This document shows, in pieces, positions 11,088 to 37,612 of a stretch of 64,000 bases of DNA. How positions within the stretch are numbered: position 1 is the first letter of the stretch; the number at the start of each line of letters is the position of its first letter. The position numbers and the translations under genes are program-made. The DNA comes from Persephonella sp. IF05-L8 (GTDB lineage: Bacteria; Aquificota; Aquificia; Aquificales; Hydrogenothermaceae), in the NCBI RefSeq assembly GCF_000703045.1, contig NZ_JNLJ01000005.1, positions 163,023 to 227,022 of the forward strand. Direction: 5' to 3'. Under the pieces are notes generated by a model. That model searched no databases. It had not been told where the DNA came from and saw only the letters and a program-made list of their open reading frames with translations.

Positions 11088-14000
11088 CTATTCAAAGAAG
11101 AATTCCTCTGGAGATAGAATTTTTGATATTTCCTGTTTAAACTCATCATTTATATCAACTGCAAAATTACTATGGGCTGCTATTTCTGCTTTAAACTTAC
11201 CTGGTTCATTAATTTCAATTATTACATCTTTATCGCCTTTATATTTTTCGCAAATTTCCTTTAGTTTAACTGCAACCCCGTTCATTGCTTTTTCCTTGGA
11301 TAAAACAAACCTGACTGCTGAAACCTGTTTGTTGATATATTCAACAGGAGTAACATTTATTGCGTTCATTGAGACTTTTTCCTGTTCCTCATTTATCTCA
11401 ATGCTTCCTTCTATAATCACAATTTTATCCTCTTCCAGAAATGATGTATCTTCCATTTTATCGGTAAAAACTCTGACATCTATAATTCCTGTTTCATCCT
11501 GAACTGTCATTATTGCCATTGTAGCTCCTGAGCGGGTTTTCTTCCTTTTGATATCAGAGATAACCCCTGCAATTTTGACTTTGTCCCCTGTTTTCCTATC
11601 AATCAGTTTGTTTATAGGAGTTACATATCCTCTTAGTTCTTTTTCGTAGGCCTTTAATGGATGTCCTGATAGGTAAAACCCAAGAACTTCTTTTTCATAA
11701 TTGAGTTTTTCCTTTTCAGATAAAGGATTTGCCTTTTCATAGGAAACAACTGGTTCGGTGTTTTCAACAGTCATCAAACCAAATAATGAGTTTTGACCAG
11801 AGGCTTTAAGCTCCCTTGTTTTCTGGCCGGCTGATAATGCTTTGTCCACTGTAGCAAGCATAATGCCTCTATCAACACCTGTAAAATCAAAGGCACCGGC
11901 TTTTATCAAAGCTTCAAGAACCCTTTTGTTTAACTTTTTGGAATCCACTCTTTCTGCTATATCAAAGATATCTGTGTATTTTCCGTTTGCTTCTCTTTCT
12001 TCTACTATCTCTTCTGCTGATTGCTCTCCAACATTCTTAATCCTTGCCAGTCCAAATCTGATTTTTCCTTTATCCTCAATATAAAACTCTGCACGGGATT
12101 TGTTTACATCAGGTGGAAGCAGTTGTATTCCAAAATCTTTCATATCCAGAAGAAGATTAAGGAATTTATCATCATTTCCTTCTGTTGTCAGCTTAACTGC
12201 AAAGAATTCCTCTGGATAGTAGGTTTTGATATAGGCTGTCCAGTATGTAAGATAAGCATAGGCTGTTGAGTGTGATTTGTTAAATGAGTAAGATGCGAAC
12301 TTTTCTATATCATCCCATAGCTTTTCTATCTTTTGTTTATCAAATCCGTTTTTGACTGCTCCGGATATAAATCTATCTTTCATTTTGGCCATGACATCGG
12401 CCTTTTTCTTACCTATAGCTTTCCTGAGGGTATCAGCTTCTGCCATTGTGAAACCAGAAAGAATGTTAGCCATGAACATAATTTGCTCTTGATAAATACA
12501 GTTATGGGAGATGATATCATTTGCTATAAAGTTATGGGTTCCTTTTACTTCTATATCATAAACATGTTCTTTACCAACATACTCAATACTCTTTATAGGA
12601 ATAAATCCTATATCTCCATCTAACAGTGCAAAAAGTTCTTTATCTTCTATTACAGAGGCAACTTTTTCTATCACTTTTGTAGATACAAAATTCTGCTCTC
12701 CATTAAAGAAATTGCTTCTCCGAATTCCTGATTTCCTTGCAAATTCTCTTCTTGATAAAGCGTTTTTATCGCAAAACTCATTAACTTTTTCAAGAATAAC
12801 ATCTTTAGGATAAAAACAGCTATCTTTAGAAGATGACATTTCTCTGTTTTTCTTTTCAGAGGTCATGAAAGGTAATATCCATTTTTTGAATGCAGACAGG
12901 TCATAAATGGTTATTTGATAAGCTGTTTTATCAGAATAGGTTGATTTATATATATGTGCTTTTATACCAATCCTTAGAAGCAGAGAATATAAGCCTTTAG
13001 CCAAATCTTCAGAAATTGTTTTTATATGGGCTAAATTTTTTCCTATAAAACCATCACAATCGCAGTAGTATGCAAGGAATTTTGCAATGGATTTTTTATC
13101 TAAAGAAAAGACGAACTCAGGGATAAATTTTTCATTGGATTTTTTATGGAAAAGTCCCAATTCTTTTAGCCAGTTTATAAGCTGATTGCTATGATAAGAG
13201 TTTCTCTCTTTACTCGTTACATATATATTCCATACATCTCTTTTTCTCTTGAATTCTTTAAAGGTTATGTTATCAAAAGCATTTAAAACAGCTTCTTTAA
13301 ACTTATCTATTAAAGATTTATCCTTATTTACAAAAGCGACTGAACTTTTTGCAAGGTAACCATCAGCAAGAAGATAAGCTAAAACTCTTAGTTTTTTTTC
13401 ATCATATTCTTTGCCTTCAATATCAACTGATGTTGGAATAGCCAGCAGGTCTTTATCTATATCTAAGTCTTTTAGTTCTTTCCATCCAAAAGGAGTTAAA
13501 AACTTATGTTCAGCTGTTGCTTTTATCTCAAGACCATTTTTAAGGGTTATTTTGTAAACATCTTTTATTCCATTATCAAAACAGTGGGTTATTTTCCCTT
13601 TTCTAAGTTTATTAGTTTTTGTATCTAATGTAAGGACTTCTTCATCTACTAAGTTGTTTTCCACAATATCTTTTATTGTTTTTCTTGTTCCATCTGCAAA
13701 GGTTATTAGAGTATCCCCTGTCAAACACAAGCCGTATGTTTCTTCAAGAATATCCTTAACCTCTTCAAATGGATACTCAACAGGTTTTCTACCATGCTTT
13801 CTTTCTATAAAATCATCTACCATTCCGGACATAAGGGGTCCTGGTCTGAACAGGGCAAGGATAGCTATGATTTCATCAAATTTATCCGGTTTTAGCCTTG
13901 TAAGGAGATTTTGCATTCCTTTTGATTCAAGCTGGAATACTCCTGTGGTTTTGCCTGATTGAAGCAGCTTGTAAACATTAGGGTCATCAAAACCAAGCTC

Positions 14001-15812
14001 AAGGAAATTCAGCTCAACACCGTGTCTTTCCTTGACCAGTTTTCTCATATAATCAAGTTCGGTAAGGGTTTTCAGACCGAGAAAGTCCATTTTAACAAGA
14101 CCAAGCATCTCAAGGGTTCCCATATCAAACTGGGTGGCTTTTGTGCCATCTTTATCAACGTATACCGGAACATACTCATCAAGGTCGCCTGGAGCAATAA
14201 CTACACCGGCGGCGTGAATTCCTGTATGTCTTGCTGAACCTTCAAGCTTCCTTGCAAGGTCTATAAGTTTTCTGACCTTTTCATCTGTTTCGTAAAGCTT
14301 TCTAAACTCTGGATTTGCCTCAAGGTTTTCATCAATTGTGAGGGTTGAGCCTTGCACAGGACCCGGCAGTATCATTTTTGCAATCTTGTCGGCTTCTGTG
14401 TAAGAAAATCCCAGAGCCCGTGCAACATCTCTGATAACCATTTTGGATTTCATAAAGTTGTATGTAATAATCTGGGCAACAGCATTTTCGCCGTATTTAT
14501 TTTTTACATACTCTATGACTTTAGGTCTGTTTTCCTGACAGAAATCCACGTCAATGTCAGGCATAGAAATTCTATCCGGATTTAAAAATCTCTCAAAAAT
14601 CAGACCGTGTTGTAGTGGGTCAACATCGGTAATTCCCAGAGTGTATGCAACAAGCGACCCTGCTGCACTACCTCTTCCGGGACCAACAGGAATACCGTTT
14701 TGTTTCGCATAGTTAATAAAATCCTGCACTATCAAGAAATACTCAGGGAAGCCCATTTGTTTTATAACATTTATTTCATACTCAAGTCTTTCTTTATACT
14801 GCTGATATTTTTCTTTTGGGAGGTCTTTCATTTTAGATAATCTTTTTTCCAGCCCTTCCCATGCCAGTTTTTCAAAATATTTTTCTTTTTCTTCATAGGT
14901 GGCTTCTCTGTCAAGTCCAGGAATTTGGAATTTAGGGAATAGGTATCCTCTTGTTTCTGCTGTATCTATCTCAACATTACATTTTTCCGCAATTTCCATT
15001 GTGTTTTTTAGGGCTTCTTCATAGCCTTTGAATTTTTGATACATCTCTTCTGGTGTTGTGAAATGAAGCCCCCTAACTTTGAATGCTCTACCTTTTTCCT
15101 TAAGCTCTTTTAAGGTCATTTTCATTTGAAGGGCTTTTATGATATCGTGGGCTTCTGCATCTTCTTCGTTAAGATAATGGGAATCGTTTGTTGCTACTAT
15201 CTTTACGTCAAGTTTTTTGGCCAGCTCAAAAAGACCTTTATTTGCTTCCTCCTGCTCCTCAAGACCATTAAGCTGTATTTCAAAATACAGGTCTTCTCCG
15301 AATATATCCTTCAGCCTTTTTGCATATTCATAGGCTTCATCAAATTTTCCCTTTGAAAGCAGATGAGGAATAAATCCTTTAAGACAGGCTGTCTGGCATA
15401 TCAGTCCTTCATGGTATTTTTCAAGTAGTTCCCAGTCTATACGGGGTTTGTAATAAAAACCTTCTGTATATGCAAGGGAGGAAAGTTTCATGAGATTTTT
15501 AAATCCCTGTTTGTCTTTGGCATGCAAAATCAGGTGATAGTTCTTGTCTGCAAGAATGCTGTCTGAACCTTCTCCCTTTTTCTCAAATCTATTGTTGGTG
15601 AAATATGCTTCCATTCCGATGATTGGCTTTACGCCAACCTTTTTCATCTCTTGATAGAACTCTATGGCACCGAATATGTTTCCATGGTCTGTTAAGGCTA
15701 CTGCTTTGTATCCATACTCCTGTGCTTTTTGTGCCAGTTCAGGTATTTTTATCATTCCGTCAAGCATTGAGTAATGGCTGTGAAGGTGTAAATGGACAAA
15801 ATCTTTTGACAT
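11088..15812 (-). CDS. dnaE: DNA polymerase III alpha subunit, interrupted by an in-frame intein
   Basis: This is the replicative polymerase subunit. The frame encodes 1574 residues. Removing the intein (696-1104) leaves 1165, the normal DnaE length. The N-terminal PHP domain shows HLHLHSHYSMLDG and ALTDHGNIFGAIEF. The palm has GPGRGSAAGSLVAYTLGI and PDIDVDF with catalytic Asp419 and Asp421, plus KMDFLGLKTL. The conserved YG-x-x-YQEQIM motif is the intein site. FASYSFNKSHSTAYA is intact. The OB fold (VKIAGVISDIKRKKTRSG) lies in the last 250 residues. The PHP histidines look intact, so a metal-dependent nuclease activity is possible. ATG 15812 has only a weak ribosome binding site. Confidence 0.97.
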   Translation of the reverse strand: MSKDFVHLHLHSHYSMLDGMIKIPELAQKAQEYGYKAVALTDHGNIFGAIEFYQEMKKVGVKPIIGMEAYFTNNRFEKKGEGSDSILADKNYHLILHAKDKQGFKNLMKLSSLAYTEGFYYKPRIDWELLEKYHEGLICQTACLKGFIPHLLSKGKFDEAYEYAKRLKDIFGEDLYFEIQLNGLEEQEEANKGLFELAKKLDVKIVATNDSHYLNEEDAEAHDIIKALQMKMTLKELKEKGRAFKVRGLHFTTPEEMYQKFKGYEEALKNTMEIAEKCNVEIDTAETRGYLFPKFQIPGLDREATYEEKEKYFEKLAWEGLEKRLSKMKDLPKEKYQQYKERLEYEINVIKQMGFPEYFLIVQDFINYAKQNGIPVGPGRGSAAGSLVAYTLGITDVDPLQHGLIFERFLNPDRISMPDIDVDFCQENRPKVIEYVKNKYGENAVAQIITYNFMKSKMVIRDVARALGFSYTEADKIAKMILPGPVQGSTLTIDENLEANPEFRKLYETDEKVRKLIDLARKLEGSARHTGIHAAGVVIAPGDLDEYVPVYVDKDGTKATQFDMGTLEMLGLVKMDFLGLKTLTELDYMRKLVKERHGVELNFLELGFDDPNVYKLLQSGKTTGVFQLESKGMQNLLTRLKPDKFDEIIAILALFRPGPLMSGMVDDFIERKHGRKPVEYPFEEVKDILEETYGLCLTGDTLITFADGTRKTIKDIVENNLVDEEVLTLDTKTNKLRKGKITHCFDNGIKDVYKITLKNGLEIKATAEHKFLTPFGWKELKDLDIDKDLLAIPTSVDIEGKEYDEKKLRVLAYLLADGYLAKSSVAFVNKDKSLIDKFKEAVLNAFDNITFKEFKRKRDVWNIYVTSKERNSYHSNQLINWLKELGLFHKKSNEKFIPEFVFSLDKKSIAKFLAYYCDCDGFIGKNLAHIKTISEDLAKGLYSLLLRIGIKAHIYKSTYSDKTAYQITIYDLSAFKKWILPFMTSEKKNREMSSSKDSCFYPKDVILEKVNEFCDKNALSRREFARKSGIRRSNFFNGEQNFVSTKVIEKVASVIEDKELFALLDGDIGFIPIKSIEYVGKEHVYDIEVKGTHNFIANDIISHNCIYQEQIMFMANILSGFTMAEADTLRKAIGKKKADVMAKMKDRFISGAVKNGFDKQKIEKLWDDIEKFASYSFNKSHSTAYAYLTYWTAYIKTYYPEEFFAVKLTTEGNDDKFLNLLLDMKDFGIQLLPPDVNKSRAEFYIEDKGKIRFGLARIKNVGEQSAEEIVEEREANGKYTDIFDIAERVDSKKLNKRVLEALIKAGAFDFTGVDRGIMLATVDKALSAGQKTRELKASGQNSLFGLMTVENTEPVVSYEKANPLSEKEKLNYEKEVLGFYLSGHPLKAYEKELRGYVTPINKLIDRKTGDKVKIAGVISDIKRKKTRSGATMAIMTVQDETGIIDVRVFTDKMEDTSFLEEDKIVIIEGSIEINEEQEKVSMNAINVTPVEYINKQVSAVRFVLSKEKAMNGVAVKLKEICEKYKGDKDVIIEINEPGKFKAEIAAHSNFAVDINDEFKQEISKILSPEEFFFE
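12501..13727 (-). mobile_element. DnaE intein with LAGLIDADG-type homing endonuclease motifs (409 residues)
   Basis: The protein splices itself out post-translationally. It starts at Cys696 of the precursor (CLTGDTLITFADG, block A) and ends HN at 1103-1104, followed by the +1 Cys of CIYQEQIM. Block B is TAEHKF (intein residues 71-76). Block F/G is VYDIEVKGTHNFIANDIISH plus Asn. Two LAGLIDADG-like helices, VLAYLLADGYL (115-125) and FLAYYCDCDGFI (217-228), keep the acidic residue before Gly, so the endonuclease may be active. Residues about 305-360 look like a helix-turn-helix. Hand counts in sampled 60-base rows give about 22-35% GC inside against about 48% in an extein row, which fits transfer. 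Confidence 0.93.
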
Positions 15813-37524: not shown

Positions 37525-37612
37525 GCCCAGGTGGCGGAATTGGCAGACGCGCTGTCTTGAGGGGACAGTGCCCTTAACGGGCGTGCGGGTTCGACTCCCG
37601 CCCTGGGCACCA
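37525..37612 (+). tRNA. tRNA-Leu, anticodon GAG
   Basis: The acceptor stem GCCCAGG pairs with CCTGGGC, and the 3' CCA is encoded. The anticodon arm CTGTC-TTGAGGG-GACAG gives anticodon GAG, reading CUC and CUU. A long variable arm (GCCCTTAACGGGC region) marks a class II tRNA, and GGTTCGACTCC is the T arm. The only RNA gene found in the window. It is on the plus strand between two minus-strand genes, and ends one base before the stop codon of pmbA. Confidence 0.97.

Follow-up and report, generated by a model that had tools for sequence, protein, structure and literature searches.

The window analysed here, a 64-kb stretch of DNA from Persephonella sp. IF05-L8, belongs to a genome of 1.83 Mb on 5 contigs and contains a dnaE precursor open reading frame of 1574 amino acids on the minus strand (11088-15812); no second DnaE was found in this genome. 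Within this frame, a 409-residue intein (12501-13727, minus strand) interrupts the DnaE finger domain at ETYGL↓C-I-YQEQ, in which the arrow marks the point of insertion, and splits the finger profile PF17657 at profile position 117 of 166. The boundaries, from Cys1 to Asn409, were set by comparison with empty alleles. The insert is followed at the +1 extein position (12498-12500, minus strand) by the codon TGT for Cys, where the empty sister genome G006 has GTA for Val. A preliminary description of the DNA had claimed a 409-residue insert with Cys as its first residue, His-Asn at its end and a further Cys directly after it, and these limits proved exact at 12501-13727 with TGT at 12500-12498. 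It also held that removal of the insert restores a normal DnaE of 1165 residues, as the subtraction of 409 from 1574 confirms, and that the insert appears richer in AT than its host, which agrees with a GC content of 0.301 in the intein versus 0.376 in the exteins. The conserved motif that it named as interrupted is located correctly, but its spacing is not, since the joined sequence is YG-L-C-I-YQEQ with three residues, not two, between YG and YQEQ. Splicing is presumably needed for growth because no other DnaE was found in the genome. Elsewhere in the 64-kb window, tRNA-Leu (gag) at 37525-37612 is the only tRNA found, and none of the Rfam families scored at or above its gathering threshold there.

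The splicing part of the insert consists of two segments. The N-terminal (Hint) half, residues 1-100 (13428-13727, minus strand), is recognised by TIGR01445, Pfam Intein_splicing and a phmmer match to 1mi8, and contains block A as CLTGDT and block B as T71-A-E-H74. The C-terminal half, residues 370-409 (12501-12620, minus strand), is recognised by TIGR01443 and Pfam, and contains block F as VYDIEVKGTHNFIAND and block G as IISHN. The class 1 residue set is thus complete, with C1, T71-A-E-H74 (TxxH), H408-N409 and the +1 Cys. Pfam Intein_splicing scores 102.5 bits in the insert and LAGLIDADG_3 scores 58 bits over two stretches; both exceed their curated cut-offs, as do TIGR01445 and TIGR01443. 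A match by chance is not a concern in view of an E-value of about 1e-29 over the full length of an open frame. The blocks A, B, F and G and the two LAGLIDADG-like helices that the preliminary description had picked out are matched by these profiles, and its reading of a DnaE intein with homing-endonuclease motifs is borne out by the profiles together with the intein-free relatives. This anatomy identifies the insert almost certainly as a class 1 intein that carries a homing endonuclease of the LAGLIDADG family, and its site within the finger domain of DnaE is a distinct one.

The first LAGLIDADG motif, VLAYLLADG (residues 115-123; 13359-13385, minus strand), was placed by alignment and by a fold match to TliVMA, and its presumed catalytic residue is Asp122. 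The second, LAYYCDCDG (residues 218-226; 13050-13076, minus strand), was identified by LAGLIDADG_3, with Asp225 as the presumed catalytic residue. Both Asp residues are invariant in six aligned alleles. The AlphaFold model is mostly confident over the endonuclease domain (residues 108-290), and the modelled fold matches TliVMA (Z 20.9), PI-SceI (Z 17.9), PI-PfuI (Z 17.1) and I-DmoI (Z 15.6). TliVMA and PI-SceI share this LAGLIDADG fold, but differ in having VMA as host and in their targets. Residues 300-365 (12633-12830, minus strand) may form a helix-turn-helix-like bundle with predicted helices at 308-321, 326-333, 337-340 and 350-360, for which pLDDT is mostly 65-87. The Hint half was modelled at low confidence owing to a shallow alignment of only six input sequences, and it was judged from the sequence profiles alone.

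The same DnaE site is occupied in 14 of the 136 Aquificota genomes searched, and empty junctions were read in 76, the remainder being unsampled or having an incomplete dnaE. Eight genomes carry complete 409-residue inteins (G000, the genome of the window, G103, G022, G010, G020, G014, G004 and G110), the intein of G007 is incomplete at a contig end, and that of G028 is split over two contigs. Four others carry mini-inteins of 189 (G017), 168 (G105), 139 (G108) and 139 (G030) residues, all of which lack the endonuclease core, and the 189-residue form of G017 retains the helix-turn-helix stretch. Relatives with the same insert carry the names Persephonella and Hydrogenothermaceae in public records. 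The occupied alleles are patchy and span two families of the order, and the extein tree forces at least six gains or losses, as counted from its starred branches. The open frame across the insert would also suit an additional, unspliced domain of a normal polymerase. However, the canonical intein blocks and the HN↓C junction speak against this, and the empty alleles restore the conserved motif: the 76 sampled intein-free relatives run YG-x-x-x-YQEQ, 75 of them without Cys there, so the insert is no regular part of the polymerase. The comparison with related dnaE genes, which the preliminary description had proposed, thus found close relatives empty rather than the insert common to all, and together with the profiles it leaves an extra DnaE domain practically no probability. 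A literature search found no paper joining intein, DnaE and Persephonella.

The residue that follows the insertion point distinguishes occupied from empty alleles almost perfectly. Cys is present at +1 in 14 of 14 occupied alleles versus 1 of 76 empty ones, in which the residue is Ile (39), Trp (21), Phe (8), Val (7) or Cys (1), although these counts are inflated by shared ancestry. When near relatives on the extein tree are paired as occupied and empty (G000/G006, G010/G011, G110/G106, G108/G107, G017/G024 and G030/G034), the +1 Cys difference appears in all six pairs. G028 and G030, which belong to another family, have the flanks YGL↓CI versus YGI↓WA in their empty relatives. Inteins are generally described as inserted in front of a C, S or T that the host already has (PMC2814812); this site breaks the rule, since I, W, F or V stands at +1 in 75 of 76 empty alleles. 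The rule is obeyed by a second DnaE site, where empty dnaE reads GPGRG↓S, and the DnaB, GyrA and UvrB inteins precede Ser, Thr and Thr, respectively, within recognisable host motifs, the GyrA Y↓T and UvrB GK↓T junctions being judged from the joined motif only.

Several further inteins were recorded in these genomes. The second DnaE site, GPGRG↓S(AAGS) (L037-L047), is occupied in G009, G017, G023, G002, G013, G022, G026, G028, G030, G034 and G036, and the DnaE of G030, a 2213-residue open reading frame, appears to hold three inteins. The genome of the window also carries a UvrB intein in Walker A (L055, G000:C1:1119500-1124500; GATGTGK↓S...VHN↓TFTIAN), with an apparent Ser start and LAGLIDADG-like motifs, and a GyrA intein (L056, G000:C5:262600-267200; MRY↓C...HN↓TEARL), whose site also holds an intein in several other Aquificota. 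The sister G006 has a shortened DnaB intein of about 207 residues at RESG↓SIEQDAD (L054, G006:C1:1864000-1867500).

The history of the intein in the lineage of the window can be addressed by comparing the divergence of intein and exteins. The exteins of the empty sister G006 are 95.0% identical to those of G000 at the nucleotide level. G103, which belongs to the same species as G000, is 98.5% identical in the intein and 99.5% in the exteins. The closest intein outside the species is that of G022, which represents a different genus; it is 92.9% identical with a synonymous difference of 0.27, compared with 77.3% and 0.69 (near saturation) for the exteins. In the intein tree, G000 and G103 join G022 and G010 with support of 96/99, whereas the C-extein DNA beyond the junction tract described below places them with G006 and G001; these C-extein data reject a clade of G000, G103 and G022 in the AU test (p-AU 7e-45). 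By these sequence comparisons, the intein moved recently into the G000/G103 lineage from another species. The donor was not G022 itself because the intein synonymous difference of 0.27 slightly exceeds the value of 0.21 between the exteins of G000 and G006. G022 and G103 appear to share one source metagenome, and an assembly chimera was considered for the G022 intein; it is unlikely because the inteins of G022 and G103 are 93%, not about 100%, identical, so that mixing of assemblies is not the explanation. A phage or plasmid vector was also considered and rejected, since the phage and plasmid records yielded only inteins below 60% identity, at 25-29% among the matches listed, and many lie in helicases. 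The IMG/VR matches fell in other genes, except for one dnaE-like contig in which the site is shifted.

The DNA flanking the intein bears a trace of this event. The most divergent 160-bp window of dnaE between G000 and the sister G006 is the junction itself (-90 to +70), which contains 25 mismatches in 160 bp versus 152 in 3371 bp elsewhere. The tract contains 17 changes particular to G000, and G022 agrees with G000 at 14 of them and with G006 at 1; among such changes outside the tract, it agrees with G000 at 8 and with G006 at 10. The excess of donor-like bases in the tract (Fisher p 0.004; 0.018 without the +1 codon) is indicative only, since the edges were chosen after viewing the data and the junction region is moderately variable between empty relatives too, as illustrated by a somewhat variable 0.83 at 0 to +60 between empty G006 and empty G001. 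The patch of about 160 bp around the junction looks donor-derived, as co-conversion during homing predicts, and the approximate co-converted segment (12431-13815, minus strand) would comprise the intein with about 88 bp of N-extein and about 70 bp of C-extein.

The patchiness could instead reflect loss, with an intein ancestral to the genus that disappeared from G006, G001 and other lineages. Loss belongs to the homing cycle, decay is visible in the mini-inteins, and the intein-free allele of G085 has a Cys that resembles a scar. Nevertheless, the +1 Cys should persist after precise loss, and G006, G001, G011, G009 and G002 have Val, an argument that is evaded only if loss took place as conversion back from an empty allele. 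The mismatch between intein and extein divergence and the AU test demand horizontal transfer regardless, and the donor-like tract at the occupied junction argues for gain in the lineage of the window. Ancestral presence followed by loss is consequently a very improbable account of the distribution. G085, the sole Cys-bearing empty allele, reads ILEETYGLCIYQEQIM with flanks of the intein type, and nearer relatives of this genome read YG(V/I)(W/I)VYQEQ at the same point. Its DnaE is 52% identical to that of the window. G085 is a plausible relict of a departed intein, as a single case from a fragmented genome.

A mechanism can be proposed that combines splicing of the protein with cleavage of the DNA and repair as the transfer route. 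To judge from the conserved residues, Cys1 would take over the upstream peptide bond and the chain would then be handed to the +1 Cys; Asn409 would cyclise and free the intein, and the extein halves would join as ETYGL-C-I-YQEQ. In a cell with both occupied and empty dnaE, the footprints at the junction suggest that the endonuclease would cut the empty allele near the junction and that repair from the donor would copy the intein and flanking bases into the cut allele. Since Val, Ile, Trp or Phe occupies +1 in the empty alleles, each successful invasion would also require the donor TGT codon to be copied. The mobile unit at the DnaE site therefore probably includes the +1 codon in effect, such that homing succeeds only if repair overwrites this codon with Cys, and Cys would mark every allele that has ever been occupied.

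Between G000 and G022, dN in the endonuclease core is 0.016, far under the synonymous difference (pS 0.33), which suggests that the core has been held by selection between the two, as expected of a still-moving element. Motif 2 of the window allele departs from all other full-length alleles in having C222 instead of Trp, and its helix-turn-helix stretch contains K332 and R336, which are rare or unique among alleles; these residues imply that the endonuclease of this allele may be weakened. The enzyme could even be inactive already, the intein being kept by splicing alone at a later stage of the life cycle, and the mini-inteins at the same site indicate that endonuclease loss is tolerated. We regard this as possible but less likely than an active enzyme, given that the frame is open, that both presumed catalytic Asp residues are present, and that G103 of the same species lacks C222, K332 and R336. 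A further proposal is that the intein is a domesticated switch, whose conditional splicing, by redox or temperature, regulates replication, with the junction Cys residues as the sensor. The residues at the junctions are indeed Cys1 and the +1 Cys, and conditional splicing is reported for some inteins, e.g., in hyperthermophiles (PMC5790916). On the other hand, a selfish element is indicated by the patchy presence between near-identical species and by the recent horizontal acquisition, and purifying selection acts on both the splicing domain and the endonuclease core; a regulatory role is thus very unlikely here.

Among known systems, the DnaB inteins provide the best full-length family match (PRK07773, 225 bits), with a common layout of Hint and LAGLIDADG parts and the CLTGDT start, and the best solved relatives of the splicing half are DnaB inteins such as 1mi8 (Ssp DnaB). 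The DnaB inteins of Aquificota, in a form of 420-422 residues at RESG↓S(I/L)EQDAD, the Ssp DnaB site, are 30-37% identical to the DnaE intein. They differ in host gene and site, in having Ser at +1 versus an imported Cys, and in forming a separate clade (100/100). The cyanobacterial DnaE intein (Ssp/Npu DnaE) also lies in DnaE with Cys1 and a +1 Cys, and is split and without an endonuclease. Identity with this split-DnaE site was rejected, as the PRK09532 intein start is at profile position 775 versus about 713 here, i.e., about 60 residues further on. Two other inteins lie within a few residues of the studied site: one in a Paenarthrobacter plasmid dnaE (L181, NZ_CP053545.1) at YGVF↓C, one residue away, and one in a 139-kb viral dnaE-like contig from IMG/VR (L083) at YQEQ↓C, several residues away. 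Both have Cys1 and a +1 Cys and are about 27-36% identical to the DnaE intein, and their positions suggest that the motif region is a recurrent target. The +1 residue of the viral contig may be imported too because cellular DnaE has Val or Ile there. The closest precedent for the +1 change, though a milder one, is the haloarchaeal MCM-d intein, which differs in its archaeal hosts and in lying in a helicase gene. Most of its empty sites have Pro and its occupied sites Ser, so that invasion needs co-conversion of the +1 codon, and invasion through the Pro codon is reported to be rare (PMC10643990). In contrast, the DnaE site has no usable +1 residue in 75 of 76 empty alleles, yet is patchily occupied in two families.

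Collectively, the DnaE homing intein is new as a member and known as a kind, and its added value is the record of a recent invasion together with the imported +1 residue. A site lacks the catalytic +1 residue until it is invaded, so a single codon suffices to tell gain from loss. If the +1 codon is indeed part of the mobile unit, past loss of the intein would be readable from the leftover Cys, for which G085 is the candidate scar. One essential polymerase site presents a natural series of alleles: empty ones, full-length ones, a possible relict and mini-inteins (139, 168 and 189 residues). Moreover, a recent transfer between genera has left a visible conversion tract, and together these features would allow the homing cycle to be tested directly in bacteria of hot springs and vents.
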